From: an uncultured Acidimicrobiia bacterium | GTDB taxonomy: Bacteria; Actinomycetota; Acidimicrobiia; Acidimicrobiales; SZUA-35 | Reading direction: 5' to 3' | DNA length: 34,301 nt | NCBI GenBank assembly: GCA_937890445.1 | Contig: CALACD010000508.1 | Coordinates: 1 to 34,301, forward strand | Shown here: in pieces, positions 4,504 to 30,786 of the stretch | How positions within the stretch are numbered: position 1 is the stretch's first letter | How the letters are laid out: each line of letters opens with the position of its first letter | Notes under the pieces: generated by a model | Databases searched by the model: none | What the model was told of the DNA's origin: nothing | Seen by the model: only the letters and a program-made list of their open reading frames with translations | Position numbers and translations under genes: made by a program

Positions 4504-6857
4504 TGGTGGCGTCCCTCGATCAGTCGACGACCACCGCGGGGCCCATCGGTACCAGCCCGCGCCGCAAGGAGGACCATCGTCTCCTCACCGGCCGAGGTCG
4601 CTTCGTGTCCGACCTGCAGCTGCCCCGGATGCGCCACGTCGCCTTCGTTCGCAGCACCTACGCCCATGCCCGGATCGTCTCGATCGACTGCAACGAACTG
4701 GACCCGATCGATCATCCGGTGTTCACCGCCCTGTCACCGGGGTTCGAGGTCGGGCTGTTCGCCCAGAGCGCGCTGCCCGGCTACGTCGAGACCGAGCAAC
4801 CTCCCCTGGCGCGGGGCAAGACCCGCTTCGCCGGCGAAGCCATCGCGGCCGTTGTGGCCGACGACCGCTACCAGGCCGAGGACGCAGCCGAGGGAGTGGT
4901 CGTCGACTACGAACCGTTGCCCGTGACCGTCCGAGCCTGGGACGAACCACAGCACCCGGTGCACGACGCGGCCCTCGACAACGTGCTGTTGGCCCGTACG
5001 TTCTCCGCCGGCGACGTCGACGCGGCCCTGGCCGCCGCCGCCGTCGTTGTCCGACGAGAAGTGGTGACCAACCGACACGGCGGCAACCCGATGGAGGGTC
5101 GGGCCGGCGTCGCCCTGTGGGAGGGATCGGCTCGGGACGGGCACCTCACGTTCTGGTCGGGAACCCAGATCCCCCACCTGGTTCGCAACCTCCTGGCCGA
5201 GTTGCTCGAGCTACCGGAATCCAACGTGCGGGTCATCGCCCCTGATGTGGGCGGGGGTTTCGGCACCAAGGCCGTGCTGTACCCCGAAGATCTTGCCCTG
5301 TGCCTGATGGCCCGGTCGTTGCCCGGCACGCCGCTGAAATGGGTCGAGGACCGGGCCGAACACCTGGCGGCGGCCACTGCCGCCCGGGATCACCGCTACG
5401 AGCTCGAAGCCGGATTCGACGCCGAGGGTCATCTGGTCGGCATCCGGGGCGAGGCCTGGTGCAACGTCGGCGCCTATTCGGTCTACCCGTGGACGGCCGG
5501 CATCGAGGCGTTGATGGCCGGAGGACTGCTGACCGGCCCGTACAAGGTCGAGAACTATCGCTGCAGCGTCCGAGGCGTGGCCACCAACACCGCCCCCTCG
5601 GGCCCGTACCGGGGTGTGGCCCGACCAGCCACCGTCTATGCCATGGAATGCCTGCTCGATTCGGGTGCTCGGGCCCTGGGAATGGACTCCATCGACATCC
5701 GCCGCGTCAACCTGATCGGGCCCGACGACGTGCCCTACCGGCTACCGACCCGCCTGATCGACGACACCGGCCACTACGCCGAATGCCTCGACGCCTGCAT
5801 CGAGCGGTTGGGTCTGGACGAGCTACGGGCCGAGCAGGCGAGACGCCGAGCCGAGGGTGGCAAGCCGATCGGTATCGGTCTGGCCTGCTACAACGAGCTG
5901 ACCGGGTTGGGCCGGGCCGCCTCGGCCGGTCCCCGCATGCCGTTCCGGACCGGTCACGAGGCGTGCACGGTGCGGATCAACCCCGACGGCAAGGTCGTGG
6001 TCCTCTCCGGGGTCACCTCGCAGGGCCAGGGGCTCGAAACCACACTGGCCCAGGTGGTGGCCGAAGCCGTCGGGGTGAACTACGACGACGTCGAGGTTCG
6101 CTACGGCGATACCGACCAGTCGTTGTGGGGCTTCGGCGCCTTCTCGTCCCGCCAGGCCGTCATCGCCGGTGGCGCCGCCAACCTGGCCGCCGTCGACGTA
6201 CGGGAGTCGGCACTGCGGTTGGCAGCCGAGTTGTACGAGGCGTCGCCCGATGATCTTCGGCTGGAGAACGGTTCGTTCTACGTCGCCGGGTCGCCCGAGG
6301 CCGTGGGAACGTTGGCCGATGCTGCTCGCGTTGCCTACCTCGAATCGAACCGGTTGCCTCCGGGGTTCGAGCCCGGGCTCGATGCCACCCGCTTCTACGA
6401 CCCGGTGATGGGGGCGTTCGCTGCCGGGGTCCAGGTGGCCGCCATCGAGCTCGACCCGTCCACGGGAGAGATCACGATCCTGCGGTGGGTGTGTGTCGAG
6501 GATGCCGGCCGGGTGGTGCATCCCCAGATCGTCGACGGACAGATCGCCGGTTCCCTGGCCCAGGGCATCGGGGGCGCCCAGTACGAGCACCTCGTCTACG
6601 ACGACGAGGGCAATCTCCGAACCGGAACGTTGCTTGACTACCTGATGCCGACGTCGGCCGAGATCCCCGAGTTCGAGATCGGCCACATCGAACGTCCGGC
6701 CGACAACCCCCTGGGCGTCCGGGGTGTGGGCGAGGGTGGAACCCTGGGGCCGGCCGCCGTCCTGGCCAGTGCCGTGGCCGATGCGGTCGGGATCGACATC
6801 GACCAACTGCCGCTCACCCCGGAACGTCTGTGGTTGGCACTGGAGGACCAGCGATGA
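4503..6857 (+). CDS. Xanthine dehydrogenase/aldehyde oxidase family molybdopterin-binding (large) subunit
   Basis: RRKEDHRLLTGRGRFVSD, DVGGGFGTK, PSGPYRGVARP, GVGEGGTLGPAAVL; TGATG overlap with the SDR. Confidence 0.93.
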   Translation: MVASLDQSTTTAGPIGTSPRRKEDHRLLTGRGRFVSDLQLPRMRHVAFVRSTYAHARIVSIDCNELDPIDHPVFTALSPGFEVGLFAQSALPGYVETEQPPLARGKTRFAGEAIAAVVADDRYQAEDAAEGVVVDYEPLPVTVRAWDEPQHPVHDAALDNVLLARTFSAGDVDAALAAAAVVVRREVVTNRHGGNPMEGRAGVALWEGSARDGHLTFWSGTQIPHLVRNLLAELLELPESNVRVIAPDVGGGFGTKAVLYPEDLALCLMARSLPGTPLKWVEDRAEHLAAATAARDHRYELEAGFDAEGHLVGIRGEAWCNVGAYSVYPWTAGIEALMAGGLLTGPYKVENYRCSVRGVATNTAPSGPYRGVARPATVYAMECLLDSGARALGMDSIDIRRVNLIGPDDVPYRLPTRLIDDTGHYAECLDACIERLGLDELRAEQARRRAEGGKPIGIGLACYNELTGLGRAASAGPRMPFRTGHEACTVRINPDGKVVVLSGVTSQGQGLETTLAQVVAEAVGVNYDDVEVRYGDTDQSLWGFGAFSSRQAVIAGGAANLAAVDVRESALRLAAELYEASPDDLRLENGSFYVAGSPEAVGTLADAARVAYLESNRLPPGFEPGLDATRFYDPVMGAFAAGVQVAAIELDPSTGEITILRWVCVEDAGRVVHPQIVDGQIAGSLAQGIGGAQYEHLVYDDEGNLRTGTLLDYLMPTSAEIPEFEIGHIERPADNPLGVRGVGEGGTLGPAAVLASAVADAVGIDIDQLPLTPERLWLALEDQR

Positions 6858-7684
6858 AGTCGGCGCCATTCGACTACCACCGGGCCACATCGGTGGACGA
6901 TGCCGTCGCCGTCCTGACGGCCTCCGACGGTGAGGCCAAGGTGATCGCCGGGGGCCAGAGCCTGGTGCCGCTGCTGTCGATGCGGATGGCGCAACCCACG
7001 GTGTTGGTCGACTTGAACGGTCTGGCCGAGCTTCGCAGTGACCGACCCACCGTGACCGACGGGCGTGCCCGCTTCGGCTCCATGACCCGACACGCCCAAC
7101 TGGCCATCCAGACCCACCATGGGTTGGCGGCCGAGATGGCCGGCTGGATCGGGCACACGGCCATTCGAACCCGGGGCACCCTGGGGGGAAGCCTGGCCCA
7201 CGCCGACCCCAATGCCGAATGCCCGGCCCTGGCCCTGGCCTGCGATGCCGCCCTCTCGGTGCAGGGAGCAGACGGTGTACGAACGATTCCGGCCGCGGAG
7301 TTCTTCGCCGGGATGCTGCAGACGGCGCTGGCCGACGACGAGATCCTGACCGTCATCGACCTGGCCGTTCCCCGCCGGTGGGGATTCGCCGAGTTGGCTC
7401 GACGACATGGCGACTTCGCCCTCGTACTGGCCACGGTCACCGAGCTGGCCGATGGTTGGCGAGTAGTGGTGGGCGGGGTCGAGGGGACCCCGGTCCGACT
7501 GGCTGATGCCGAGGCCGCGTTGAGCAGTGACGCCTCGACCGACGAGGTCGGACGAACCGTGGAGGAGTCGATCGTCGCCTATGACGATCTCCATGCCACC
7601 AGCCGCTATCGACGAGCCATGGCGGCCGAACTCGTACGGCGAGCCGTCGACCAGGCCCGCCGGACCCAGGGAGAAGCATCATGA
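6854..7684 (+). CDS. FAD-binding (medium) subunit of molybdenum hydroxylase
   Basis: FDYHRATSVDDAVAVL, AGGQSLVPLLSMRMAQP, TRGTLGGSLAHADPNAE; ATGA overlap. Confidence 0.94.
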   Translation: MKSAPFDYHRATSVDDAVAVLTASDGEAKVIAGGQSLVPLLSMRMAQPTVLVDLNGLAELRSDRPTVTDGRARFGSMTRHAQLAIQTHHGLAAEMAGWIGHTAIRTRGTLGGSLAHADPNAECPALALACDAALSVQGADGVRTIPAAEFFAGMLQTALADDEILTVIDLAVPRRWGFAELARRHGDFALVLATVTELADGWRVVVGGVEGTPVRLADAEAALSSDASTDEVGRTVEESIVAYDDLHATSRYRRAMAAELVRRAVDQARRTQGEAS

Positions 7685-7725
7685 CGACCGACCGTGTGAC
7701 GACCGACCGTGTGACGACCGAGACG
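7681..7725 (+). repeat. 15-bp tandem repeat at the small-subunit start: (A/G)TGACGACCGACCGT x2 plus GTGACGACCGAGACG
   Basis: Each unit begins with an in-frame start-capable codon (ATG, GTG, GTG). Confidence 0.9.
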
Positions 7726-8277
7726 AAGGTCGAGTTGTCGATCAATGGTCGACGCCACGTCGTGGGAGTGGAACCGCGTCACACCTTGGGCGACGTGCTG
7801 CGAGAACAGCTCGGTCTCACCGGCACCCACCTCGGATGTGAACACGGCGTGTGCGGAGCCTGCACCGTGCTCGTCGACGGGGAACCGACACGCTCCTGCC
7901 TGGTCTTCGCCGTGCAGATGGACCAGACCGAGATCACCACGATCGAGGGGCTGGCGGCAGCGGACGGAACCCTCCATCCGGTGCAGGAGGCCTTCTCGGC
8001 GTGCCATGGCTTGCAGTGCGGTTTCTGTACCCCCGGCTTCGTACTGACTGCCGTGCACCTGCTTGCCACCAATCCGGCTCCCGATCGGGCCACCATCCGA
8101 CGTGAACTGTCGGGGAATCTCTGTCGGTGCACCGGCTACGTGGGCATCATCTCTGCTGTCGAACGAGCGGCTGTCGAACGAGCGGCTGTCGAACGAGCGG
8201 CTGTCGAACGAGCGGTCACGAACGCTGCTGCTGTTGCTGCATCCGCTGCTGACGAACCGTCATCTCCGAGGCATTGA
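7681..8277 (+). CDS. (2Fe-2S)-binding (small) subunit of molybdenum hydroxylase
   Basis: CEHGVCGACTVLVDG, CHGLQCGFCTPGFVL, NLCRCTGYVGI; ATGA overlap with FAD subunit. Confidence 0.95.
   Translation: MTTDRVTTDRVTTETKVELSINGRRHVVGVEPRHTLGDVLREQLGLTGTHLGCEHGVCGACTVLVDGEPTRSCLVFAVQMDQTEITTIEGLAAADGTLHPVQEAFSACHGLQCGFCTPGFVLTAVHLLATNPAPDRATIRRELSGNLCRCTGYVGIISAVERAAVERAAVERAAVERAVTNAAAVAASAADEPSSPRH
8155..8214. repeat. Tandem repeat, 15 bp x4, perfect (GCTGTCGAACGAGCG), encoding (AVERA)4
   Basis: Four identical units 8155-8169, 8170-8184, 8185-8199, 8200-8214. Confidence 0.98.
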
Positions 8278-9187
8278 CCCGACGAGGCTCGTCGGTGATG
8301 ACCGATCGAGCTGCAGGAGCCATCCGTTCGATCACCACCTCGGTCTCGACCTGCGGGGTGGCCTGACCGAAGAACACGCCACGCACCGGCGCCACGTCGT
8401 CGTAGTCGCGACCATGACCGATGATTGCATGGCGATCGAGTACGGGCACGTCGTTGGTCGGGTCGACGGCGAACCAGCCGTGCCCGGGGACTGCAGCCTC
8501 GACCCAGGCGTGGGTCTGCACATGGACGACATCGTCCTGACCCGGGCGGCCGAGGTCGCCCTGCAAGGTCGTTTCATCCTTGGCGAACAGGAAACCACTG
8601 ACGTACCGGGCCGGAGTGCCGACCGCCCGCAGGAGTGCGATGGTGAGGTGGGCGAAATCCTGACAGACCCCGACGCCACCGTTGACCAGATGCGCGAGGT
8701 CGACGCCGATCTCGGTGGCACCCGGCTCGTAGGCCAACAGCGAACGGGTCGTCGACACCATGGCCTGGATCTGCTGGGCGACGTCGTCGACGCCGACCAC
8801 TGCCCGGTGCGCTCGAGCCTCCAGGTCGGGGTTCGGCGCGCTGTGGCTCGAAGGGGCCAGATACTCGGCATGGGCCGAGATGAACACCGGTTCGGCCAGC
8901 ACCGACACCGGAACCGTCTGCTCGATCGCAGGTTGCGCTGCGGTCTCGACGGCAGCTTCGGCCACGACCTCGAACGAGAGATGCGGGTCTCGGACGCCGA
9001 CATGGTCGACCGTGGTCCCCCAGTAGTCGACGAAGGACAACACCCGGGCCGACGGCGACGTGGTCAGTCGGCGGGCGATGACCTGCTGTCGCTCATCGCT
9101 GCGGGGCCGGACCCGGAGCTCGTTCTGCGACTCCCACACCGGCACGTCGTACTCGAAGAGCATGCGATAACGGATGTCGAGTCTCAC
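8216..9187 (-). CDS. Transglutaminase-like family protein (with bacterial transglutaminase N-terminal region)
   Basis: GVCQDFAHLTIALLRAVGTPARYVSGF (Cys), THAWVEAAVPGHGWFAVDPTN (His/Asp); MRLDIRYRMLFEYDVPV N-terminus. Confidence 0.93.
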   Translation of the reverse strand: MRLDIRYRMLFEYDVPVWESQNELRVRPRSDERQQVIARRLTTSPSARVLSFVDYWGTTVDHVGVRDPHLSFEVVAEAAVETAAQPAIEQTVPVSVLAEPVFISAHAEYLAPSSHSAPNPDLEARAHRAVVGVDDVAQQIQAMVSTTRSLLAYEPGATEIGVDLAHLVNGGVGVCQDFAHLTIALLRAVGTPARYVSGFLFAKDETTLQGDLGRPGQDDVVHVQTHAWVEAAVPGHGWFAVDPTNDVPVLDRHAIIGHGRDYDDVAPVRGVFFGQATPQVETEVVIERMAPAARSVITDEPRRVNASEMTVRQQRMQQQQQRS

Positions 9188-10152
9188 CGCAACGACCTCC
9201 CCGGGCGCACGAACTGAGCATGCATGTTCGGCTCTCCCAACGGGCGGAACGTGCTGGTGCCGAGGGTCACGGCCAGATCATCGACGGCTCTGCGCAACTC
9301 CCGGAGATAACGGACGGGATCGTCCTCCAGTGCCGAACGAACGTCGCCGTACTCCAGACCCGAGCGGATCCGGCCGGCCACCACCTGCGACGACTCCATG
9401 ACCCGGGCCCCCTGGTCGAGGGAGGCCAGACGACCTTCCAGGTACCGCAGGCACGACAGCACCGAACGCGGCAGATCGGGCGTGACGAGCAGGAAGCTGG
9501 TCACCGTGATGGCGTCACGAGCATGGGCGTGCCGACGGCGAAACGCCTGCAACGCGCTGGACGAACGGAGCACGCGGTCGGCATCGAAGATGGTCTCCGC
9601 CTCGGCCGTGGTCGGTTGATTGGCAACGGTCAGCAAGCGGAGCGTGAGACTCGATCGCTCGAGCATTCTTCCGATGGTGATGTAGGCATGCCCCTCGTCG
9701 CGGGGCATGGCCTCGCTGAGCACCCCGCTGATGGCCTGGCATCCTTCGCGCACCGTCCGGAAGATCTCGTGAGGTTGATCGAAACTGGACCGAACCGCGA
9801 GCGCTCCGAGCTGGAGATGCAGGCGATTGGCGGCCTCCCACAACTCGACCGGAACACGATCACGGGCTACCCGCAGGTTCTCTCGGACGGCCTCCAGAGA
9901 CGCCCGGACCGACCCCGGTGAATTGCTCGTCAACAGGAAGTCGACGACGTCGGAACGATCCTTGCCGTCATCGTCGAGCAGTTTGCCCAGTCCCAGGGCT
10001 TCGACCAGATGGGACCATTCGACCGCAGCGTCCTCGGGGAGCAGGTGCATCGAGGCCCGCGATGCCACCTCCAACCATCGGGCCGTGGTCTCGGAACGTT
10101 CCAGGTAGCGACCGACCCAGAACAACGATTCGGCGTGGCGGGCGAGGATCAT
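9184..10152 (-). CDS. Alpha-E domain-containing protein
   Basis: MILARHAESLFWVGRYLERSETTARWLEV start and WEAANRLH; located between ATP-grasp and transglutaminase genes. Confidence 0.9.
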   Translation of the reverse strand: MILARHAESLFWVGRYLERSETTARWLEVASRASMHLLPEDAAVEWSHLVEALGLGKLLDDDGKDRSDVVDFLLTSNSPGSVRASLEAVRENLRVARDRVPVELWEAANRLHLQLGALAVRSSFDQPHEIFRTVREGCQAISGVLSEAMPRDEGHAYITIGRMLERSSLTLRLLTVANQPTTAEAETIFDADRVLRSSSALQAFRRRHAHARDAITVTSFLLVTPDLPRSVLSCLRYLEGRLASLDQGARVMESSQVVAGRIRSGLEYGDVRSALEDDPVRYLRELRRAVDDLAVTLGTSTFRPLGEPNMHAQFVRPGRSLR

Positions 10153-11609
10153 CGGGTTCCGTTCTCGGCCAGGACCCAGGTGTCCTTGGAGCCACCACCT
10201 TGCGACGAGTTCACGATCAGCGATCCCTTCTTCATTGCCACTCGGGTGAGGCCGCCGGGGAACACCTCGGTCCGAGCGCCGGTGAGTACGAAGGGCCGCA
10301 GATCCAGGTGACGTGGCTCCAGATGGTCGTCACTCATCGACGCCAGACTCGACAGCTGCACGACCTCTTGGACGATCCAGTTCCTCGGATCAGCTTCGAT
10401 GACCCGACGACACTCGTCGAGCTCCTGGTCGGTTGCGTGAGGACCGATGACGATGCCGTACCCGCCCGATTCGGCCACCGGCTTCACCACCAACTCGTCG
10501 AGCCGGTGGAGGGCGGCCGCTCGCTGGTCGGCATCCCACATCACGTAGGTCTGCACATTGGGCAGGATCGGCTCTTCGTCGAGGTAGTAGGTGATCATCG
10601 CCGGCACGTAGGGATAGACGGCCTTGTCGTCGGCCACGCCGTTTCCGACCGAGTTGCACACCGTGACGGTGCCGGCCCGCATCGCCCCCAGGAGCCCGGG
10701 CACGCCCAGCGTCGAATCCGATCGGAACGACACCGGATCGAGGAAGGCATCGTCGATGCGGCGATAGATGACGTCCACCGGCAACGGGCCGTGGATGGTG
10801 CGGGCATAGACCACCTGATCATCGACCAGGAGATCCTGGCCTTCCACCAGTTCGACTCCCATGGACCGAGCCAGGAACGCGTGTTCGAAATACGCCGAGT
10901 TGTAGACACCGGGCGTGAGAATGACGATGTTGGGTCGGTCGCTGGAGGACGGCGGTGCCATCGATTCGAGAACGCGTCGCAGCATCTCTCCGTACTGGTC
11001 GACCGGCTGGACCGTGTAGTTCTCGAAGAGTCGGGGGAAGGCTTTGACCATGGCGGCTCGGTTCTCGACGACATAGGAGATACCGCTGGGGTTGCGGAGG
11101 TTGTCCTCGAGGACGGCATAGTCACCGTTGGCGTCACGGACCAGATCGATGCCTGCGATGGAGCAATGAGCCCCATTGGGCACCGAGATGCCGAACGCTT
11201 GCCGCTCGAAGCCCTTCGAGCTGGTGATCAGCCACTCGGGAACGATCCCGTCGTTGACGGCGGCTCGCTCGCCGACGTACAGGTCGTCGAGAAAGTGATT
11301 GAGCGCCGTGACGCGCTGTTCGAGTCCTCGGGCCACCGACTCCCATTCGGCGGCAGCGATCAGACGGGGGAACAGATCGATGGGCCAGGTCCGCTCCAGC
11401 CCTTCGGCATCGTCGTTGTAGACCGTGAACGTGATTCCCTGACGGCGGAACTCGTCGGCAACGACCACTTCGATGCGCCGAAGGTCGTCGGCGTCGAGAT
11501 CGGAGAACCGATCGATGATCTTGGAGTACAGCGGGCGCGGTCTGCCCTCGGAGTCGAAGGCCTCGTCGAAGCCTCGGGCCTGGCTGTAGGACTCGAAGAG
11601 TCGACTCAT
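10149..11609 (-). CDS. Circularly permuted ATP-grasp family protein
   Basis: RTWPIDLFPRLIAAAEWESVARGLEQRVTALNHFLDDLY, PNGAHCSIAGIDLVRD, LEDNLRNPSGISYVVENR, ILTPGVYNSAYFEHAFLA, KPVAESGGYGIVIGP. Confidence 0.95.
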   Translation of the reverse strand: MSRLFESYSQARGFDEAFDSEGRPRPLYSKIIDRFSDLDADDLRRIEVVVADEFRRQGITFTVYNDDAEGLERTWPIDLFPRLIAAAEWESVARGLEQRVTALNHFLDDLYVGERAAVNDGIVPEWLITSSKGFERQAFGISVPNGAHCSIAGIDLVRDANGDYAVLEDNLRNPSGISYVVENRAAMVKAFPRLFENYTVQPVDQYGEMLRRVLESMAPPSSSDRPNIVILTPGVYNSAYFEHAFLARSMGVELVEGQDLLVDDQVVYARTIHGPLPVDVIYRRIDDAFLDPVSFRSDSTLGVPGLLGAMRAGTVTVCNSVGNGVADDKAVYPYVPAMITYYLDEEPILPNVQTYVMWDADQRAAALHRLDELVVKPVAESGGYGIVIGPHATDQELDECRRVIEADPRNWIVQEVVQLSSLASMSDDHLEPRHLDLRPFVLTGARTEVFPGGLTRVAMKKGSLIVNSSQGGGSKDTWVLAENGTR

Positions 11610-12501: not shown

Positions 12502-13926
12502 ATGCTGCCCGCACCGCAACATTCGAGCGAGAAACCATTCGCCAGTCGACGAACCGGACGAACGGCACCGCCCAACCTGCTGTTCATCCTGGCCGACGAT
12601 CTGGGATGGTCGGACCTGGGGTGCTTCGGTTCGCCCACGATCGCCACCCCGAACCTCGACCGACTGGCGGCCGACGGCGTTCGCTTCACCCACGCCTACG
12701 CCGGATCGTCGTGGTGCTCACCCACCCGGTTCAGCCTCTACACCGGGCGCAACCCGGGCCGCCTGGCCGCCGGATTGGAGGAGCCGCTGCGGACCCGGGC
12801 CGAGGGCAAGGGGATCCCGGCCGACCAGCCCACCCTGCCATCGCTCCTGCAGGAAGCCGGCTACGACACGGCCATGTTCGGCAAGTGGCACTGTGGTTGG
12901 CTGCCCTGGTACTCCCCGCTGCGCATCGGCTTCCAGACCTTCTTCGGCAATCTCGACGGCGCCCTCGACTACTTCGAACACATCGGCACCCTGGGTGAAG
13001 CGGACTTGTTCGAGGGAGAGACGCCGGTCGAGATGACGGGCTACTACACCGACCTGATCTCCGAGCGCGCCGCCCGGTGGATCGAGCAGCCCCGCACGCA
13101 GCCGTTCTATCTCCAGCTCAACTACACGGCCCCTCACTGGCCCTGGGAGGGTCGAGGCGACGCCGAGGAAGGTCGACGTATTCACCAGGACTATCTCGAG
13201 GGCAAGGTGCCGTTCCCGCTGCTGCACACCGACAGCGGATCGCTGGCCAAGTACGGCGAGTTGGTCGAGACCATGGACGATGCCATCGGCACGGTGCTGG
13301 CCGCAATCGATGCGGCCGGCCAGCGTGACAACACCATCGTGGTCTTCTGCTCCGACAACGGCGGCGAACGTTGGTCGATGAACTGGCCCTACGTCGGCGA
13401 GAAGGGCGACCTGACCGAAGGTGGGATCCGGGTGCCGTTCATCCTCCGCTGGCCCGAAGCCGTCGCGCCCCATCAGGTGGCGACACAACCGAACATCACC
13501 ATGGACTGGACCGCCACCTTCCTCGATGCTGCCGGTACCCAGTGCCCGAGCGAATGGCCGTTGGACGGTGTCAGCCTGCTGCCCTGGCTGGTCGAATCCG
13601 CGCCGTATCCCGAGCACGACCTGTTCTGGCGCATCTCGAGCCAGGGAGCCCTGCGGCGCGGCAAGTACAAGTACCTCCAGGATCGGCGCGATCGTGCCAT
13701 CCTCGGCAACTGGCCTCGACGGTTCGGCGACTTCGACCTCCTGTACGACGTAACCGTCGACGGTCGCGAGGCGGCCAACCTGGCCCGTCATCATCCAGAG
13801 TTGACCGCGGAGTTGAAGGCCGAGTGGGAACGTATCGACGCAACACTGCTGCCCTATCCTGACGACCACCCCGGCGTCCCCCGCCATGCGGCCGGCAACC
13901 GACCTGCGGTCAGCCAGGCCGACTAG
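12502..13926 (+). CDS. Sulfatase family hydrolase (formylglycine-type)
   Basis: PNLLFILADDLGWSDLGCFGSPTIATPNLDRLAADGVRF; CSPTR FGly motif; GKWHCGW; SDNGGE. Confidence 0.94.
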   Translation: MLPAPQHSSEKPFASRRTGRTAPPNLLFILADDLGWSDLGCFGSPTIATPNLDRLAADGVRFTHAYAGSSWCSPTRFSLYTGRNPGRLAAGLEEPLRTRAEGKGIPADQPTLPSLLQEAGYDTAMFGKWHCGWLPWYSPLRIGFQTFFGNLDGALDYFEHIGTLGEADLFEGETPVEMTGYYTDLISERAARWIEQPRTQPFYLQLNYTAPHWPWEGRGDAEEGRRIHQDYLEGKVPFPLLHTDSGSLAKYGELVETMDDAIGTVLAAIDAAGQRDNTIVVFCSDNGGERWSMNWPYVGEKGDLTEGGIRVPFILRWPEAVAPHQVATQPNITMDWTATFLDAAGTQCPSEWPLDGVSLLPWLVESAPYPEHDLFWRISSQGALRRGKYKYLQDRRDRAILGNWPRRFGDFDLLYDVTVDGREAANLARHHPELTAELKAEWERIDATLLPYPDDHPGVPRHAAGNRPAVSQAD

Positions 13927-13942
13927 TTCCTCCGGAGGAATC

Positions 13943-14914
13943 ATGACCATTCGCATCGCTCTCGCCGGCGCCGGAGCGTTCGGGGTGAAACACCTCGACG
14001 GGCTCCGCACCATCGACGACGTCGTCGTCACGTCGCTCATCGGTCGCGACCTGGCAAAGACCCAGTCCGTGGCCGACACCTACGACATCGGTCACGTCAC
14101 GACCGACCTGGCCGAAAGTCTGGCCCGTGATGATGTCGATGCCGTCATCCTTTGCACACCGACCCAGATGCACGCAGCCCAGACCCTTGCCTGCCTGGAC
14201 GCCGGCAAGCACGTCCAGGTCGAGATTCCCTTGGCCGACAGCCTGGCCGATGCCCGAGCCGTGGTGGCCCGTCAGGAGGCAACCGGGCTGGTGGCGATGT
14301 GTGGCCACACCCGGCGCTTCAACCCCAGTCACCAATGGGTCCACGATCGCATCACCAGCGGGCAGTTCTCGATTCAGCACCTGGACGTGCAGACCTTCTT
14401 CTTCCGTCGCACCAACACCAACGCGCTGGGCGAGGCCCGCAGTTGGACCGATCATCTGCTGTGGCACCACGCGGCCCACACCGTCGATCTGTTCCTGTAC
14501 CAGACCGGTGGTTCGGTGGTGGCCGCCAACGCCATCGAAGGTCCGATCCATCCCGAACTCGGCATCGCCATGGACATGTCGATCCAGATCAAGGTGGACA
14601 CCGGTGCCATCTGCACCCTGGCCCTGTCGTTCAACAACGACGGGCCCTTCGGCACCTTCTTCCGCTACATCGGCGACACCGGCACCTATCTGGCCCGCTA
14701 CGACGACCTCGTCGACGGGAGGGAGGAAACCATCGACGTGTCGAACGTCGATGTGTCGATGAACGGCATCGAACTCCAGGACCGCGAGTTCATCGCCGCC
14801 ATTCGCGAGAACCGGGAGCCGAACTCGAGCGTGCACGGCGTACTCGCCTGCTACGAGGTTCTCGACCGACTCGAGCAACAGGTGGGACGAACCGAGGCCC
14901 AGCTCAGGCAGTGA
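13943..14914 (+). CDS. Gfo/Idh/MocA family oxidoreductase
   Basis: MTIRIALAGAGAFGVKHLDGL; DAVILCTPTQMHAAQTLACLDAGKHVQVEIPLADS; GGAGGA-like SD upstream. Confidence 0.92.
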   Translation: MTIRIALAGAGAFGVKHLDGLRTIDDVVVTSLIGRDLAKTQSVADTYDIGHVTTDLAESLARDDVDAVILCTPTQMHAAQTLACLDAGKHVQVEIPLADSLADARAVVARQEATGLVAMCGHTRRFNPSHQWVHDRITSGQFSIQHLDVQTFFFRRTNTNALGEARSWTDHLLWHHAAHTVDLFLYQTGGSVVAANAIEGPIHPELGIAMDMSIQIKVDTGAICTLALSFNNDGPFGTFFRYIGDTGTYLARYDDLVDGREETIDVSNVDVSMNGIELQDREFIAAIRENREPNSSVHGVLACYEVLDRLEQQVGRTEAQLRQ

Positions 14915-16142
14915 CCCGACCGCCCGAGAGTCGGGGGGCAGCCCCGTTCATGGTGGGCAGCCGCAACGACAACAACCAGGTGAGGACGACGAAGACGGCC
15001 GAGCCCCACAACGCAACCGAGAGACCGCCGACCACATAGAGGGCGCCGGACAACAACGTGCCGACCAGCCGGCCGAAGGCGTTGGCCGAGTAGTAGAAGC
15101 CGACGTCGAGGCTGACGTCATCGCCGGTCGAATAGGCCAGGATCAAGTACGAGTGCAGCGACGAGTTGACGGCGAACACGGCGCCGAACACCCCGAGCCC
15201 ACCGACCACCGCAATCGTGGTTCCGACGTCGAAGGCGACCGCCAACGCCATCACGATCGTCACGACGGCCAACGCCGACGCCCAGACCTGAGCGGCTCGA
15301 GTCTCGGCATCGATGTCGCCGGATGAGCGACCCAGCACCTGCGGGGCCAACGATTGGACGAGACCGTAGCCGATCACCCAGGCCGCCAGGAACGCTCCGA
15401 TTCCCTGATACGACCATCCCAGCTCGTCATCGAGAAACACCGGGAGCGCGACGACGAACCAGATGTCGCGGGAACCGAAGAGGAAGAATCGAGCCGTGGC
15501 CAGCCGATTGATGGCCGTGGACTTGGACAGGATCGAACGCAGTGGCGGCTTGCGCTTCGATCGGCCGATGTCCTCGTCGAGCAGGACGACGACCGAGACC
15601 AGCGCGACCGCGATGAGCCCGGCCATCGCCAGCAGGGCTCCGTCGTACCCCACCCAGGCCAACAGGGCGGCACCGAGGAAGAAGCCGACGCCCTTCAGGG
15701 CGTTCTTCGAACCGGTGAGCGCTGCCACCATTCGGAACAGCGCACCCTCGCTGTCGCCGGCCACGAACTTCACCGCGCTCTTCGAGCTCATCTTGGTCAG
15801 ATCCTTGGCCACGCCACTGAGGGCCTGGGCACCCATCACGAAGGCCACCGAACCCACCTCGGGCCAGGTCGGCCGGTGCAGGGTCAGGGCCAGGAGCGCA
15901 ACGATCTGCAGCCCGAGACCGACCACGAGGGTGCGGTTGAGTCCGGACCGGGCTCCAACCCAACCCCCGATGAGGTTGGTCACGATGCCCATGAACTCGT
16001 ACAGCAGGAACAGGAACGCGATCGACACCGGCGAGTAGCCGAGATCGTGGAAATGGAGCAGCACCAGCATACGCAACGCCCCGTCGGTCAGGGTGAAGGC
16101 CCAATAGCCGCCGGTGACCAGGACGTAGTTCCGGACCTTCAT
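14904..16142 (-). CDS. arsJ: ArsJ-type organoarsenical efflux MFS transporter
   Basis: [73 protein letters not shown], plus adjacent GAPDH and ArsR genes. Confidence 0.93.
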
Positions 16143-17158
16143 CGCGACGGTAGCGAGGCCGCCACCTTCTGGGCCAGATCGACCATTCGGAAGGCGTAGC
16201 CGTACTCGTTGTCGTACCAGATCAAGACCTTGACCATGCGCTCGTCGACGACCATGGTCGATGGCCCGTCCACGATGCCGGAGCGAGTGTCGTTCGTGTA
16301 GTCGGCCGAGACGAGCGGCCGGTCCTCGAACCCCAGGATGCCCTGGAGCGTTCCGGCGGCCGCGGTTCGGAGCAGGCCATTGACCTCCTCGGTGGTCACG
16401 TCTCGGGCCAGGGTGAACACGGCGTCGGTCAGTGATGCGTTGAGCACCGGCACCCGGACGGCCAGACCGTTGAGCTTGCCGGCCAGTTCGGGGTAGATCA
16501 TGGTGATGGCCGTAGCCGAACCCGTGCTGGTGGGGATCAGCGAGTTCAGGGCCGACCGGGCTCGGCGCAGATCCTTGTGAGGGGCGTCGAGAATCACCTG
16601 CGTGTTGGTCACGTCATGAATGGTCGTGATGAGACCCCGCTCGATACCGATGCCCTCGTGCAGCACCTTCACCACCGGCGCCAGAGAGTTGGTGGTACAG
16701 GACGCGGCCGTGACGATGCGATGCGTCGATGGATCGTACAGATGGTCGTTGCAACCCATGACCACGTTGAGGACACCATCGTCCTTCACCGGAGCGGCGA
16801 CCACCACCTTGCGAACGCCTCGATCGAAGTACGGATCCAGCAATGCGGTGGTGCGGAACGCGCCGCTGCACTCCAGAACGAGGTCCACCCCCTGTTCGTC
16901 CCACGGCACCCCACCCGGGGTGTCGAACCCGGAGTAGGTGACCCGACGGCCGTCGACGGTCAGATCACCCTGGTCGTGTGTGACCGTTCCGCCGTAGCGC
17001 CCGTGCACCGTGTCGAATTCCAGCAGATGGGCTGCGGTGGCAACGTTGCCGGAGCGCTCGTTGACGTGGGCCAACTCGAGGTCCGGGCGATCTCGCAGCG
17101 CCCGCACCACCAGGCGTCCGATGCGGCCGAAGCCGTTGATTCCCACTCGTGTCGTCAT
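16139..17158 (-). CDS. ArsJ-associated glyceraldehyde-3-phosphate dehydrogenase
   Basis: [57 protein letters not shown] overlap with arsJ. Confidence 0.95.
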
Positions 17159-17862
17159 GCTGCTCCTTGGTGTTCGATCAGGATCTCGATGCGCCGTTGC
17201 AGCTCGGCCAATGCGGCATCGAAGGCGGCCGGTGTGCCCACCTCGACGGGGTCGGGCACCGACCAATGCCACCACGACGGCTCGGGGGCAATCTCTTCGT
17301 GGGCCTGGTCGCACACCGAGACGACGATCTCGGCCGTCTCGTCGGGGCCCAGGGACCGAGGTGCCTGGTTGCCGAGGTCGAGACCGATGCGTCGTCCCGC
17401 CTCGATGGCTTCGGGGTTGATCTGGGCTGCGGGGTGGGTTCCCGCCGAGGTGGCCGGGCAGCCGGTGCGGGATCGCCACAGTGCAGCGGCCAACTGGGAC
17501 CGGGCCGAATTTGCCGAGCACACGAACAGCGCCGGGCCGACCGGACGAGTGGTCACGATCCCGAGTCGAGCCAGCGGCCCACGTCGCAGGCGCAGGTAGC
17601 GACGACGGCGATCGCCCGAGGACGCGAGCCGCTCGATCAGGCCGACGGTTTCGAGCACGTCCAGATGGTGAGCCAGAAGATTGGAGGCGATCCCGTAGCG
17701 GCTCGCGAGTTCCTTCGACGTCCGGTCGCTGGCGACCAGATCCTCGACGATGGCCAAACGGACCGGATCGCCGAGTGCAGCGTGCAACCGGGCCCGCTCG
17801 ATCACGTCTGTCTCGACGGGTGCTCTGTCTACTGACTTCACAGCTCTGTCTACTGACTTCAC
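17155..17862 (-). CDS. Fusion: N-terminal ArsR-type HTH and C-terminal low-MW protein tyrosine phosphatase/arsenate reductase domain
   Basis: ArsR HTH ([65 protein letters not shown]) followed by [13 protein letters not shown] (CX5R) and PDP near the C-terminus; GTG start. Confidence 0.9.
17821..17862 (-). repeat. Tandem repeat, 21 bp x2, at the ArsR-fusion start (GTGAAGTCAGTAGACAGAGCt/a)
   Basis: Both copies begin with in-frame GTG; encodes (M/V)KSVDRA twice. Confidence 0.95.
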
Positions 17863-20795: not shown

Positions 20796-20864
20796 GACGT
20801 CGAGGAGCACGGAACTCCGACGTTGAAGAGCCTCAGACGTCGAGAAGCTCAGACGTCGAGAAGC
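20796..20864. repeat. Degenerate repeat cluster, core GACGTCGAGAAGC x4, at the convergent DUF808/PEP-utilizing gene junction
   Basis: Cores at 20796, 20819, 20836, 20852; 16-bp perfect tandem TCAGACGTCGAGAAGC at 20833-20848 and 20849-20864 duplicates the stop codon. Confidence 0.9.
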
Positions 20865-22507
20865 ACGGTGCCGTCGTCGCCGTTGACCGTGATCATCTGA
20901 CCGGTGGTGATCATCGACGTCGCCATCTGGGTACCGACCACGGCCGGAATGCCCATCTCCCGGGCAACGATGGCGCAGTGCGAGAGCACCCCGCCGGTGT
21001 CCGCGACCACGGCACTGGCGATCGAGAACAACGGCACCCAGGGCGGCAGCGTCATGGGGCAGACCAGGATCTCACCTTCTTCCAGTTCGGTCGCCTGAGC
21101 CAGCGTGGTGACGACGCGAGCCCTGCCGGTCGCCGTTCCGGGTGAACCGGTGACGCCGGTCAGGACGTTTTCGTCGTGGACCGCATCGGGGTCGGGTGGC
21201 ACCATGCCGAGCAGTCGCACCACGAGGGCATCCATGAACGGATCGAAGGGAGCATCGGCGGGCGGCGGAGGCGGCGGTGTCCCGAGGATCGGAGGAGGCG
21301 AGATGGTGCTGTAGGCCGCATGCTCTTCACGTCGGGCCGCCAGTTCGGCATCACGCTTGGTTCCGTTGGCCATGGCGTCGCGAAGTTCGTCGACGTAGAG
21401 AAAGTGCACATCGTCAGCGTCGGCCACGACACCGGATTCCGCCAGCCGACGCCCGATCTCACCCACGAAGCGACGGAACACGGCAACGCCGGTCTGGTCG
21501 ATCCAGAACGCATGGTCCTCGGTGACCGGAAGGTTGTATTGAGCCGCCTCGTAGAGGTCGTTGAAATGCGCCAACTTGTCGGGATCATCGGCCAGGAGTT
21601 GCCGACACTTCGCCAGCTGGGTTTCCCGCTTGGCTTCGGCCCGAGCCAGGTGCAATTCGGGATTGTCGGCATCGTCCATGTCGAGGTAGCCCATGAGCGA
21701 CCGAAGCGGAACCGAGGGATCCTCGATCCAGGTCTCGGCGAACATGTCGTAGACGCCGCCGCTGCGCCAGCCGAACTCGGCGAGGAAGTCAGCGAACTCG
21801 GCATTGAACTCGGCCGCTGCGTCGGACGCAGCGAGGGCGGCCGGGAGCTCGTCGAGCGGAGTCGATTCGAACAGCGTCCGCAGCTCGGCGTTGTCACGCA
21901 CGATCCGGCTGAGCTTCCACAGACCGGTTCCGGTGTCCACGCTTCGGGTCCGGAAACCCTGAAGACACTGATAGGACTCGGTCTTGCTCTCCGGTTGGAC
22001 GACCTCGTCGTAGAAGTCGCAGAAGGCCGAGGCCGACATCAGGCAGTAGTTGATGTGACCGTGGATGTACCACTGGTAGCGCATGTGGTCGATGAACCAG
22101 TCCAGCTTCTCGGCCAGCTCCGTATCGCTGAGCGTCGTCCAGTCGGCAACCCGCAGCTCCGAGTTGAGGGCGATGACCTCCGGCTTCCATTCGAACTGCC
22201 AGCGGGCGCCAACGCCCGGCACCTTCTCGGCCAACGTCTGCTCGTACCGACTCCATCGGCGTGCGGCCTCCTCCTCGTCGGGGATCGGGTGGAAGCTGAC
22301 GTAGAAGAAGCCCTTCTCGAAACGCGGCGTCACCATGATCGAGGTGTCGTACTCGGCCTGGGCTTGGGTGAAGCCTTCGGCGATGGTGCGTCCGACGGCG
22401 TCGATCGACAATGGCGTCATGGGAGCGGTCATGTGGTTGTCGTAGGCCCAGAAGCCCTCGACCTCGTCCGGTCCCGGAAAGTCCTCGATGCTTACAGAAA
22501 GAGCCAT
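20849..22507 (-). CDS. PEP-utilizing enzyme, phosphohistidine 'mobile' domain protein without a visible ATP-grasp domain
   Basis: LVCPMTLPPWVPLFSIASAVVADTGGVLSHCAIVAREMGIPAVVGTQMAT; N-terminal ~350 aa lacks recognisable PPDK_N motifs; SD AAGGGGA. Confidence 0.85.
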   Translation of the reverse strand: MALSVSIEDFPGPDEVEGFWAYDNHMTAPMTPLSIDAVGRTIAEGFTQAQAEYDTSIMVTPRFEKGFFYVSFHPIPDEEEAARRWSRYEQTLAEKVPGVGARWQFEWKPEVIALNSELRVADWTTLSDTELAEKLDWFIDHMRYQWYIHGHINYCLMSASAFCDFYDEVVQPESKTESYQCLQGFRTRSVDTGTGLWKLSRIVRDNAELRTLFESTPLDELPAALAASDAAAEFNAEFADFLAEFGWRSGGVYDMFAETWIEDPSVPLRSLMGYLDMDDADNPELHLARAEAKRETQLAKCRQLLADDPDKLAHFNDLYEAAQYNLPVTEDHAFWIDQTGVAVFRRFVGEIGRRLAESGVVADADDVHFLYVDELRDAMANGTKRDAELAARREEHAAYSTISPPPILGTPPPPPPADAPFDPFMDALVVRLLGMVPPDPDAVHDENVLTGVTGSPGTATGRARVVTTLAQATELEEGEILVCPMTLPPWVPLFSIASAVVADTGGVLSHCAIVAREMGIPAVVGTQMATSMITTGQMITVNGDDGTVLLDV

Positions 22508-22601
22508 GTTTCCCCTTGTTTCCGGTGTGCGTCGATCGTGATTTCGGGCGGTGCTAGGCCAGCGGACACGGCGATGCCAGGCGCCACCCGACAGCCAGGG
22601 C

Positions 22602-22952
22602 CTAGGGGGACTCGGTGCGAACCTCGGTCTCGAACGTGGCAGGACCGCTGACGCGAGAGCGAAGCGACGACATCACGTTGCGATGGGGTTCCGAACCCAC
22701 CCAACGACGAAAGGTCGCCTCGTCGGCCCAGGACGAATCGACGGTCAAGCGCTTGCCTCCGAGATCGGTCACCAGGGCATAGTGCAGGAGCGCCCCGGGC
22801 TCGGCCGCCATCAGATCCTCGAGCGACTTGCGGATGCGGAAGGCACCTCGCATGAACGGGAGCATCGCCATGATCGAACTCGCCGGGAGTTCGCTGCGAA
22901 AGATGAAGCCGGCCTCGGCCGATCGGTCGGTGGCGGAACGTAGGGTCGGCAT
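22602..22952 (-). CDS. Small protein resembling antibiotic-biosynthesis-monooxygenase/DUF3291-like folds
   Basis: LTVDSSWADEATFRRWVGSEPHRNVMSSLRSR; TGATG overlap with carotenoid oxygenase. Confidence 0.55.
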   Translation of the reverse strand: MPTLRSATDRSAEAGFIFRSELPASSIMAMLPFMRGAFRIRKSLEDLMAAEPGALLHYALVTDLGGKRLTVDSSWADEATFRRWVGSEPHRNVMSSLRSRVSGPATFETEVRTESP

Positions 22953-24346
22953 CAGGCCACCGGCCCTACGGATCGGTCAGCGACCCAGTTCCCGTGGAAG
23001 CCGAAGGGGACCCGCTGGGGCAGCGGCACCCGAGCCACGTAACCCCGGTCGAAATCCTGGGCGTCGAGGACAACGAACTCGGCGGTGCCGGCGCCGAGAT
23101 CGTGGACGAAGGTGACCAGCCAACCATCGTCCTCGGCATCGCCGTCATCGCGTGCCACGAACACCGGCTCGCCGGCAGCTCGACCCGGCCCGTGATCGAA
23201 CACCTGCCGAGTCCCGGTGTGCAGGTCATGTTTCAGCGTGGGCCATCCGACCGAGGAATCGCCCGAGACGGCTGCGCAGTAGCCGTAGCGATAGGGCTTG
23301 GTGCCGAGCGAGCCGCGGTGACGGGGAAACTCGTTCGAGGTGTCGTCGAGCACGGTGATGGACGCCCCCCGAGTGACGGGATCGAGTTCCCATCGTTCGA
23401 GGCGGGCCAGGTTGTCGCCGAAAGGGCCTCGCACGTCGGCATCGAACATCGTTGCGTAGTTGCAGAGGTCGACGATCACCTTGCCGTCTGCGGTGTCATA
23501 GGCATTCATCGGATGGAACGAGTACCCGTTGGGCACGTCGATCCAGATGATGTCCGACGCCTCTCCTTCCCGAGGAAGCAAACCGACGCGGTTGCCGTAC
23601 TCGGGATTCCAACGGAACGGGAACTGGCCGGCAAAGGCCACATTCAGATCCACAGTGCAGGGCTGGTCGTAGACGATGGCGAAACGACTGGTCAACGACA
23701 TGTCGTGGAGCATCGTCATCCCCAGCGGGATGTCCACTGTGCGCCGCACTCGACCATCGGTACCGATGACGACGTACTGCACATGGTCGAGCCACTCCGC
23801 CCAGGCATAGACCATGGCATGCATCTCGCCGCTGTCGGGATCGACTTTCGGATGGGCCGTGAACGCCCCGGGCAGGGTGCCGAAGAAGTCGTTGCGCCCC
23901 ACCGTCTCGAGCTCGTAGGTGAGTTCCACCGGACATCCACCCGCTTCGACCATGGCCCACGTCCGACCGGCAAAGCCACCGACGTTGGTGTTCGGACCCA
24001 GAGAGGACCCGTTCCAATTGGTACCGGCGATGTCATCTCGGCCGCGCACCTCCGACACCCGACTGGAGCCCACGTAGCGATTCCGGTACCAGGCAGCTCG
24101 CCCGCCTTCGACCCGGAGGCCATGGACCATTCCGTCCCCCATGAACCAATGATGCGTGGCCGGATCGACCGTTCCGATGGGATTCGGCCCGTTGCGCAGA
24201 TAGCGGCCGGTGAGCTCGACCGGCAGCTGGCCGATCACGGGGAGATCGAACGCGGTCACCTCCTCGGTGACCGGGGCGAAGTTGCCCGACAGATAGACGG
24301 CGGTATCGCTCGACGTTTCGTTCATGACCTTCGCTCCGACCTTCAT
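22952..24346 (-). CDS. Carotenoid oxygenase (RPE65/CCD/lignostilbene dioxygenase) family protein
   Basis: LSGNFAPVTEEVTAFDLPVIGQLPVELTGRYLRNGPNP; HHWFMGDGMVHGLRV; FTAHPKVDPDSGEMHAM; C-terminal VPFGFHGNWV. Alternative ATG at 24325. Confidence 0.93.
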   Translation of the reverse strand: MKVGAKVMNETSSDTAVYLSGNFAPVTEEVTAFDLPVIGQLPVELTGRYLRNGPNPIGTVDPATHHWFMGDGMVHGLRVEGGRAAWYRNRYVGSSRVSEVRGRDDIAGTNWNGSSLGPNTNVGGFAGRTWAMVEAGGCPVELTYELETVGRNDFFGTLPGAFTAHPKVDPDSGEMHAMVYAWAEWLDHVQYVVIGTDGRVRRTVDIPLGMTMLHDMSLTSRFAIVYDQPCTVDLNVAFAGQFPFRWNPEYGNRVGLLPREGEASDIIWIDVPNGYSFHPMNAYDTADGKVIVDLCNYATMFDADVRGPFGDNLARLERWELDPVTRGASITVLDDTSNEFPRHRGSLGTKPYRYGYCAAVSGDSSVGWPTLKHDLHTGTRQVFDHGPGRAAGEPVFVARDDGDAEDDGWLVTFVHDLGAGTAEFVVLDAQDFDRGYVARVPLPQRVPFGFHGNWVADRSVGPVA

Positions 24347-24418: not shown

Positions 24419-25033
24419 ATGACCGTTCCGTCAAGAGATGTCGCAACCGATGACCCTTCGTCGACCGCGTCGACCGACATGCGTTCCCGGCTGGTCGACG
24501 CTGCACTCACCTTGCTGCAACACCAGGGCGCAGCCGCTCTCACCGTCCGCAACATCACCACCCGGGCCGGCTGTTCGACCACGGGCATCTACACCTACTT
24601 CGGGGGCAAGAACGGCCTGGTCGACGCCATCTTCAGCAACGGCTTCGCCTCGTTCGACCAGGCACTCGACCCGTTTCTCGACGAAGGGGACCTGCTGGGG
24701 GCCGGGCAGGCATATCGGCGGTGGGCGCTCGCCCACCCCATGCAGTACATGGTCATGTTCGGCCGAGCCGTACCCGATTTCGAACCGTCCGACGCTGGGC
24801 TCGAGAGGGCCCTGGTGTCGTTCTCCAAGTTGGCGGCCGGCGTCCGACGTGCCGGCATCGGCGGCGACGCCGACCATCGGGCTCATCACATCTTCGCCAC
24901 GGTGCACGGGTACGTGATGCTGGAGATGGCCGGGATGGCACCGCCCCTCTCCGTCCCGATCGAGACGCTCTACCTTCACGCGCTCGCATCGGCGAGCGAG
25001 CCGATCCGACCGCCCGGCCAAACCGTGAACTGA
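24419..25033 (+). CDS. TetR/AcrR family transcriptional regulator
   Basis: MRSRLVDAALTLLQHQGAAALTVRNITTRAGCSTTGIYTYFGGKNGLVDAIF. Confidence 0.93.
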   Translation: MTVPSRDVATDDPSSTASTDMRSRLVDAALTLLQHQGAAALTVRNITTRAGCSTTGIYTYFGGKNGLVDAIFSNGFASFDQALDPFLDEGDLLGAGQAYRRWALAHPMQYMVMFGRAVPDFEPSDAGLERALVSFSKLAAGVRRAGIGGDADHRAHHIFATVHGYVMLEMAGMAPPLSVPIETLYLHALASASEPIRPPGQTVN

Positions 25034-28386: not shown

Positions 28387-28423
28387 CATCGCCCGTCGTG
28401 ACATGCGCCGTGGGGGCCGTCAT
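28355..28423 (-). CDS. Candidate 22-aa bridging micro-ORF (MTAPTAHVTTGDDDCSPMTVFL)
   Basis: ATG overlaps stop of the upstream molybdopterin subunit (ATGA) and its TGA overlaps the next micro-ORF ATG (28358). Confidence 0.3.
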   Translation of the reverse strand: MTAPTAHVTTGDDDCSPMTVFL

Positions 28424-30786
28424 CGATCGGCAGCGGTTGATCCATCGGTCTCATCGTAGTGAGCGCTCGTGGCCAATCCCGAGACCATCGGGCCGTTCGA
28501 CGTTCGACCGGTGATCGACTGCCAGATCTTCTCCGGTGTCAGGGGAAGATCGAGATGACGGATCCCGGTGTCCGCGAGCGCATCCAGCACGGCATTGTGA
28601 GCCGACGCGGTGGCGGCATTGCAGCCGTTCTCGCCGATCCCCCGGGTCCCCAGCGGATTCCGTTCGGTCACGGTCCCCAGCGTCTCGGTCTCGATGCTGC
28701 ACAACTCGGATGCTGCCGGCAACAGATAGCTGGCGAAGGTGGCCGACATCGGGTTACCCGACACGTCGTAGCCGATGTCCTCGAACAGGGCCTGACCCAG
28801 GCCGGCCACCGCTCCCCCGTGTTGCTGTCCTTCGACCAACGTCGGTTGCAGCACGCGCCCGCAGTCATCGACTGCCGCATGGGACAGGAGGCGAACCGCT
28901 CCGGTCTCGTTGTCGACCTCGACCACCGTCACATGGCTGCCGTAGGGATGGGCCGCTCCGCTCACCGATTCGTTCCTGGTGGCCTCCAGACAGTTGCGCT
29001 CGGACCGACCTGCCAACTGAGCCCACGTCACCCGTCGAGTCGGCACCCCGGCCACGGCCAGACCGGCATCCATGCCGTGCCCGGCCGGAGCCACCACCAG
29101 ATCGCTCTCCGCGGCCTCCAGCTCGGAGGCCACGAGCGGTCGGGCCGCCGCGACGATGTCCTCGCAGGCATGCACGAGGGCCGAGGCCGCCACCTGGGTC
29201 GAACGCGACCCGCCCGTGGTCTGCCCGCTGGCTACGACGTCGGTGTCGGCATCGACCATCGCGATCAGCGACGGATCGATGCCCAGCTCCCGGGCAACGA
29301 GCGCCGACCACGTGGTGAGATGTCCCTGCCCGTGGGAGGGGCTGGCGCAGCCGATGAGTACCGACCCATCGGCGCGGACCTGCACGAGGGCCGAGTCGCG
29401 GGGAGCACCCCGACCCGAGGTCTGCGCGTAATTGCCGATGCCGATACCGATCTGCCAGCGCGCCCCTGCGTCGCGACGCCGTTGCTGTTCGGCGCGCCAT
29501 CCCGCGACGTCAGCGAGTTCGAGCGACCGTTGCATCGCTCGCTGCGGATCAGCACGATCGTAGACGACCGCCTCGAACCCGGGCCCCGACGCCGACACCA
29601 GAGGAAATTCGTCGGCCGAGGCCAGATTGCGCAGGCGGAGCTCGATGGGGTCCATCCCCAGTTCGGCTGCGGCCAGATCGAGGAGCCGTTCCCTGGCGTG
29701 GTTGGCCTCGGGCTGCCCGGCCCCTCGGTAGGCGCCAACCGGGGTGGTGTTGGTCAAGACCGCACGGGCCGAACAGCGGTACCGAGGGATCCGATACATG
29801 CCGGGGAACTGGCGACGAGCCGAGATCAACAGCAACGCCGAGAGGTGGGCAGAGGCGCCGGCGTCGGCAGTGACATCGACGTCCATCCCCGTGATGTGAC
29901 CGGCTTCGTCGAAACCCACGCGGATGGCGGTGTGATAGCCCCGCCCCTGGGCCATGCCGGTGAGGTTCTCGTATCGGCCCTGCAGCCATCGAACCGGTCG
30001 ACCCAGGCGACGGGCCAGATCGCACACCACGACGAACTCGGGGGAGATCGAACCTCTACCTCCGAACCCGCCGCCGACTGCAGGAGAGCGGACTCGAATC
30101 CGATGGGCGTCGATTCCCAGCTGAGGGGCCAACTGATCTCGTATTCCCTGGACGCCTTGACTCGTGCACCAGACGTCCAGTCCATCGCCGAGCGGTGTGG
30201 CCAGGATGCCATCGCACTCGAGCGGGGCCGACGCAACACGATTGTTGACGATGACGGCCTCCACGACATGGACCGCCTCGGGGCCGATCGGATCCGCTCC
30301 CCCATCGATGAGTTGGTACACGACATTGGTACCGCTCTCGGGGTAGAGCGGGGGTGCAGCGGCCGAGGTCAGAGGATCGAGGACCGAGTCCGACGTCTCG
30401 ATCTCGACATCGACGAGATCGGCGGCGTCGGTGGCTGTGGCGACATCCCGGGCTACGACCACGGCGATCGCCTCACCCACGAACCGCACGCGATCTCGGG
30501 CCAGCGGCGGGCCGCACATCGAGGCCGGCAGATCGCCGAAGAGATGAAACGGACCGAGAGGCGACGTCTGGCCCGTCTCGACCGCAACGACTCCCGGATG
30601 GGCGGCCGCAGCCCGGGCGTCGACCTCGACGAGGCGACCGTTGGCCACGGGCGAGCGGACGAAGACTGCATGCAACGCGTCATCGGCACCGAGATCGGCG
30701 GTGAAGGCACGGTGACCGGTGACCAACGCCCGATCCTCGGCTCTTCCCGGCCCGGGGCCCGGTCGGGTGATCCCGATCTCGTCCAC
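28420..30786 (-). CDS. Xanthine dehydrogenase family molybdopterin-binding subunit (orphan large subunit)
   Basis: AEDRALVTGHRAFTADL, GGGFGGRG, TNTTPVGAYRGAGQPEANHARERLLD, NPLGTRGIGENG, LPLTPEKIWQSI; GTG start. Confidence 0.93.
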   Translation of the reverse strand: MDEIGITRPGPGPGRAEDRALVTGHRAFTADLGADDALHAVFVRSPVANGRLVEVDARAAAAHPGVVAVETGQTSPLGPFHLFGDLPASMCGPPLARDRVRFVGEAIAVVVARDVATATDAADLVDVEIETSDSVLDPLTSAAAPPLYPESGTNVVYQLIDGGADPIGPEAVHVVEAVIVNNRVASAPLECDGILATPLGDGLDVWCTSQGVQGIRDQLAPQLGIDAHRIRVRSPAVGGGFGGRGSISPEFVVVCDLARRLGRPVRWLQGRYENLTGMAQGRGYHTAIRVGFDEAGHITGMDVDVTADAGASAHLSALLLISARRQFPGMYRIPRYRCSARAVLTNTTPVGAYRGAGQPEANHARERLLDLAAAELGMDPIELRLRNLASADEFPLVSASGPGFEAVVYDRADPQRAMQRSLELADVAGWRAEQQRRRDAGARWQIGIGIGNYAQTSGRGAPRDSALVQVRADGSVLIGCASPSHGQGHLTTWSALVARELGIDPSLIAMVDADTDVVASGQTTGGSRSTQVAASALVHACEDIVAAARPLVASELEAAESDLVVAPAGHGMDAGLAVAGVPTRRVTWAQLAGRSERNCLEATRNESVSGAAHPYGSHVTVVEVDNETGAVRLLSHAAVDDCGRVLQPTLVEGQQHGGAVAGLGQALFEDIGYDVSGNPMSATFASYLLPAASELCSIETETLGTVTERNPLGTRGIGENGCNAATASAHNAVLDALADTGIRHLDLPLTPEKIWQSITGRTSNGPMVSGLATSAHYDETDGSTAADR

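Follow-up and report, generated by a model that had tools for sequence, protein, structure and literature searches.

Two-component phenolic dikinases form a subfamily that was defined only recently, and the published examples require both parts, an H subunit and an ATP-grasp (I) subunit, for ATP-dependent activity. HpeHI and AcvAB are kinases of acetovanillone and 4-hydroxyacetophenone, described from R. rhodochrous GD02 and Sphingobium SYK-6 (PMC12167813, PMC9618137), and CreHI is the 4-cresol kinase of Corynebacterium glutamicum. HpeH and HpeI do not form a stable complex, and HpeH alone transfers phosphate between two phenols (PMC12167813). The phenylphosphate synthase PpsAB of Thauera aromatica and the aniline-activating PasAB of Desulfatiglans anilini belong to anaerobic pathways and likewise have separate swivel and ATP-grasp subunits; their H parts, down to 27% identity, share their chemistry, whether the substrate is phenol or aniline (PMC7500099).

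Locus and domain layout of the H-type protein

The window analysed here is a 34,301-nucleotide stretch of DNA from an uncultured Acidimicrobiia bacterium, whose genome assembly of 4.5 Mb lies in 619 contigs and is 93.6% complete. The three open reading frames that a sequence-only reading had placed side by side are all present, on the minus strand. The stop of the gene for an RPE65-family carotenoid oxygenase of apocarotenoid type (22952-24346, 464 aa) overlaps at position 22952 with the start of the gene for a small ABM-fold protein (22602-22952, 116 aa), and the H-type swivel gene (20849-22507, 552 aa) follows after a gap of 94 nt (22508-22601). An AAGGGG-like stretch precedes the ATG of the H gene inside this gap, where a pattern scan predicted no terminator, and co-transcription of the three genes is plausible. 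A TetR-family regulator gene (24419-25033, plus strand; PF00440 and PF13305) starts 72 nt from the oxygenase gene on the opposite strand, a position from which it could possibly control the oxygenase operon.

In the H-type protein, the PEP-utilizers mobile domain (PF00391, residues 475-546, E 8.7e-24) is the only Pfam domain above cut-off. The phosphohistidine swivel motif noticed earlier (TGGVLSHCAIVAREMGIPAVVG, residues 504-525, encoded at 20932-20997 on the minus strand) is intact, with the phosphoacceptor His510 in DTGGVLSH, which fits a T/SxxGGxxxH-type phosphoacceptor motif. The swivel His is conserved in every aligned H-type protein that covers its position. The claim that the N-terminal region does not resemble the ATP-grasp domain of PPDK or PEP synthase was also borne out, as Pfam detected no PPDK_N domain in the protein and the Foldseek alignment likewise showed no ATP-grasp in the chain. 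An identity as PEP synthase or PPDK was rejected, since Pfam found neither an ATP-grasp nor a PEP-binding C-terminal domain.

The PRK08296, RedH, PigC and RPH (rifampin phosphotransferase) models match the protein from its middle to the C-terminus, and in phmmer alignments residues 193-409 pair with the rifampin-binding domain and residues 448-548 with the swivel domain of RPH. Structure prediction gave an RPH-like acceptor domain in the N-terminal region, and no intact nucleotide-binding domain turned up. The AlphaFold2 model (seven sequences; mean pLDDT 80, pTM 0.81, with lower confidence for the linker and for some of the swivel domain) shows a helical N-terminal domain (residues ~26-400) joined by a linker (~401-445) to a swivel domain (~446-552). 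The top six Foldseek matches are RPH structures over the full length (TM 0.67-0.68 over the query, E down to 3e-19), and the matches after these cover the swivel domain only. Going by this model, the N-terminal ~400 residues are a rifampin-binding-type acceptor domain and no unknown fold. An RPH-like acceptor domain, a C-terminal swivel domain with its His motif and the lack of an ATP-grasp in the chain, as in the H components HpeH, CreH and PpsA, are all found here. As judged from Pfam, phmmer, Foldseek and alignment, the 552-aa protein is thus an acceptor/swivel subunit with the predicted architecture of two-component phenolic dikinases, and since it shares this architecture, its earlier description as a separated subunit of phenylphosphate-synthase type is right.

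HpeH has the make-up and mechanism that we propose for the window protein (PMC12167813). The two are alike in their RPH-like acceptor domain, their C-terminal swivel His and the absence of an ATP-grasp in cis, but HpeH is larger, at 71 kDa compared to 552 aa. CreH-type proteins match the window protein in architecture and resemble it in the catalytic motif (ENHNFY vs EDHAFW), and the site motif TEDHAFWIDQ of the window protein is nearer to VENHNFYIEH of a cre-like cluster on a Rhodococcus ruber plasmid (L141) than to RPH. However, the cre-like cluster includes an adjacent I gene, a P450, a ferredoxin and an aldehyde dehydrogenase, which sets it apart from the window, and because the cre-like protein is ~29% identical to the window protein, we can only infer the substrate class. 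PpsAB and PasAB, with their swivel and ATP-grasp activities on separate subunits, resemble the window protein at the level of subunit layout. The acceptor and swivel domains of RPH match the window protein over its full length, but RPH has an ATP-grasp in the same chain and uses Arg666, Glu667 and Lys670, of which the window protein keeps the Glu only (E330); by alignment, Arg666 and Lys670 have no equivalents.

With these two residues absent and no dedicated partner found (see below), the H protein might have lost phosphotransfer and be a decaying or purely binding protein. However, its open frame is full-length with coding bias, the swivel motif is fully kept and long blocks are conserved with relatives at 44-56% identity, and we therefore regard such a loss as highly improbable.

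Absence of a dedicated ATP-grasp partner

While HpeH is encoded with HpeI, and PpsAB and PasAB have a dedicated ATP-grasp subunit, no such partner was found for the window H protein. The full surroundings of its gene hold no ATP-grasp (I) gene, so the separate I gene of a complete two-component dikinase is not encoded with it. A lone PPDK ATP-grasp gene elsewhere in the genome, as the sequence-only reading would have it, was looked for in the host and not found: PPDK_N is limited to two long proteins in the assembly, and a search that used a genuine lone I protein of the same organism family as query returned only these two. One, on contig C469, is of PEP-synthase type, with ATP-grasp, swivel and PEP-binding domains, and the other, on contig C478, combines an ATP-grasp with a swivel domain at the C-terminus in an RPH-like layout. 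The host carries three H-type genes, namely the one in the window, a paralogue on contig C30 (54% identity) and a distant one on contig C416 (25-33%).

Among 60 H proteins placed on a tree, the one in the window falls in a nine-member clade with support 100/100, whose named relatives come mostly from Acidimicrobiia MAGs. None of the nine (0/9) has an adjacent I gene by a scan of the loci with a nine-sequence I-component HMM, and this adjacency evidence is incomplete for some loci because they stop at contig ends. The paired label changes 3 times on the tree, compared to a mean of ~17 for shuffled labels. In the same family of organisms, a 96% complete genome (G527) holds two H genes of the clade and only long PPDK-type proteins, none of them lone. 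Two more genomes (G405 and G383) have no intact lone PPDK_N gene and only long multi-domain PPDK_N proteins, and one small contig of G405 additionally carries a short PPDK-like fragment.

At 93.6% completeness and 619 contigs, the host assembly may lack a partner gene that the organism has. The protein would then be part of an ordinary two-component dikinase whose I gene exists and lies in an assembly gap. H+I pairs are indeed usual in several clades (G223, G074, G094, G038, G224, G239, G060 and G084), and occur also in the cre-like cluster of R. ruber and in Thermomicrobium roseum. However, the I gene of paired loci lies within ~3 kb of the H gene, a distance over which the surroundings of the window gene hold none. 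All three host H genes would need a missing I gene, and G527 also lacks a lone one. Thus, we consider an assembly gap somewhat unlikely.

The explanation we think reasonably probable as a whole is that the window protein is the H half of a two-component dikinase for a hydroxylated, probably phenolic small molecule and is charged in trans. The substrate would bind in the helical N-terminal domain, while His510 on the swivel domain would take a phosphoryl group at an ATP-grasp site. By analogy with HpeHI and RPH, phospho-His510 would then swing back and pass the phosphoryl group to the substrate hydroxyl, probably a phenolic one. Charging in trans is conceivable since HpeH and HpeI form no stable complex, and the likeliest donor would be an ATP-grasp protein of another kind, with the C469 and C478 proteins as candidates.

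A donor other than an ATP-grasp protein is likewise conceivable, because HpeH alone moves phosphate between phenols. The window clade, together with another, larger one that has an RPH-like R-E-x-x-K site, might accordingly consist of stand-alone phosphohistidine phosphotransferases that have given up the PPDK-type ATP-grasp subunit and use another donor, e.g., a phosphorylated metabolite; we judge this unlikely. Outside the window clade, three genomes (G169, G187 and G211) encode H-type proteins and wholly lack the PPDK_N domain, and in G027, assembled in one contig, five H-type proteins are accompanied only by PPDK and a single weak multi-domain match.

The interest of the window protein lies in its orphan state. 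An H-type subunit lacking an ATP-grasp partner is apparently undescribed in the open-licence papers that we searched. If partnerless H-type proteins are truly as common across this bacterial class as the sample indicates, their phosphate comes either from other ATP-grasp proteins or from a different donor.

Two other H-type clades are described here in their own right. The first has 17 members (L095-L112 and L114, minus L097 and L105) from G169, G187, G211, G027, G202, G071 and G161, with an RPH-like R-E-x-x-K site and an intact swivel His, and 0/17 lie beside an ATP-grasp gene. The second (L118-L121, L124 and L142) adjoins a Tm-1-like ATP-binding protein (PRK02399 model), and an I gene is present in some members and missing beside most. 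Some of its loci have a TIM-barrel protein, GntR regulators and xanthine-dehydrogenase-type genes nearby, and the TIM-barrel protein is annotated as a PEP hydrolase family in T. roseum.

The oxygenase and the small ABM-fold protein

The oxygenase is an RPE65 protein (PF03055, residues 23-455, E 2e-106) in which the iron-binding His165, 214, 278 and 451 are invariant, as in carotenoid cleavage oxygenases. The best of three subfamily models is that of the apocarotenoid 13,14-cleaving dioxygenase (NF052295), which it matches over the full length with the four iron-binding His kept; the score of 517.7 bits is below the cut-off of 675, and therefore the cleaved bond cannot be named. The lignostilbene dioxygenase model gave 204 bits. 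Lignostilbene dioxygenases hold the 4-hydroxyl of the substrate through Tyr-101 and Lys-134 (PMC8191317). The window oxygenase has Val133 at the position of this phenol-binding lysine and no Tyr aligned at Tyr-101; because the lysine is replaced, the lignostilbene type offered by the sequence-only reading is unlikely, and we rejected it. The small protein scores 24.9 bits with ABM (PF03992), a weak match given the cut-off of 23.1. A second RPE65-family oxygenase of the host, on contig C469 (L041:12448-13917), has clearly diverged from the window enzyme.

The three genes had been suggested to define an aromatic or apocarotenoid pathway. Such a pathway would begin with cleavage of a carotenoid-, stilbene- or styrene-like compound by the oxygenase, continue with processing by the small protein and end with transfer of phosphate to the product by the H protein. 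The common strand, the close spacing and the lack of a terminator between the genes agree with this, as does the translational coupling of the small gene to the oxygenase, which recurs in G002. However, the surroundings of related genes speak against it. Oxygenase orthologues with 66-78% identity are found in seven other sampled genomes of the order, and none of the readable ones has an H-type gene beside it; the region downstream could not be read in G153, which lacks gene calls, or in G202, where the orthologue lies at a contig end. Among the readable loci, the small gene recurs only in G002, where it is 47% identical, overlaps the oxygenase gene as in the window and is followed by unrelated genes. 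Conversely, H-type relatives with 43-56% identity adjoin other genes, no clade relative of H has a close oxygenase alongside, and in the genomes with swivel-clade members the only oxygenases are more distant ones encoded on other contigs. A conserved trio was rejected on these surroundings, and together with the missing phenol-binding lysine they make the three-gene pathway distinctly unlikely. Nor can the neighbouring ABM and H genes of T. roseum be counted in favour of the trio, as the two ABM proteins have no detectable similarity. No paper joining a carotenoid oxygenase with a PEP-utilizing protein was found in the literature searched.

Because the readable orthologue loci lack an H gene, the oxygenase and the small protein appear as a partly conserved pair to which the H gene is a local addition. 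The pair is probably a separate, older unit for apocarotenoid cleavage, and the H gene would have come to lie behind it in this lineage. A shared transcript of all three genes is possible, and a shared pathway is not indicated. Correcting the pathway guess also prevents a misannotation of the oxygenase as a step in a phosphorylating aromatic route.

Genomic links to aromatic catabolism

The substrate of the H protein is probably a phenol-like compound of aromatic catabolism. A clade member with 47% identity (L046) adjoins what is by Pfam content a protocatechuate 4,5-cleavage set, with LigA, LigB, an FAD hydroxylase, two amidohydrolases, an RraA-like aldolase, a GFO/IDH/MocA dehydrogenase (LigC-like) and a PrpF isomerase. 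The window itself encodes a LigC-like dehydrogenase (13886-14914; GFO/IDH/MocA and OxRdtase_C) that is 62% identical to that of L046, and the LigAB of the host are found on contig C553. A MetE-like gene precedes the H gene both on contig C30 and in L044, with 80% identity between the two MetE-like proteins; this neighbour may hint at O-demethylation or one-carbon transfer. Collectively, the LigABC, PrpF and MetE-like links suggest aromatic catabolism, without naming a substrate.

The MetE-like genes (L039:6373-9339 and L044:951-3890) lie directly upstream of the H genes in two genomes. Two sets of xanthine-dehydrogenase-type molybdenum hydroxylase genes are found in the window (3831-8277 and 28420-30786), and similar genes accompany the H genes on C30 and in other clades.

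The window also contains one operon of circularly permuted ATP-grasp, Alpha-E and transglutaminase-like genes (8216-11609), in which the ATP-grasp is of an unrelated kind. Further along, at 14904-17862, Pfam identifies an MFS transporter, a glyceraldehyde-3-phosphate-dehydrogenase-like gene and an HTH_20 and LMWPc fusion in a row, which we take to resemble an ArsJ/GAPDH/ArsR-ArsC arsenic resistance set.
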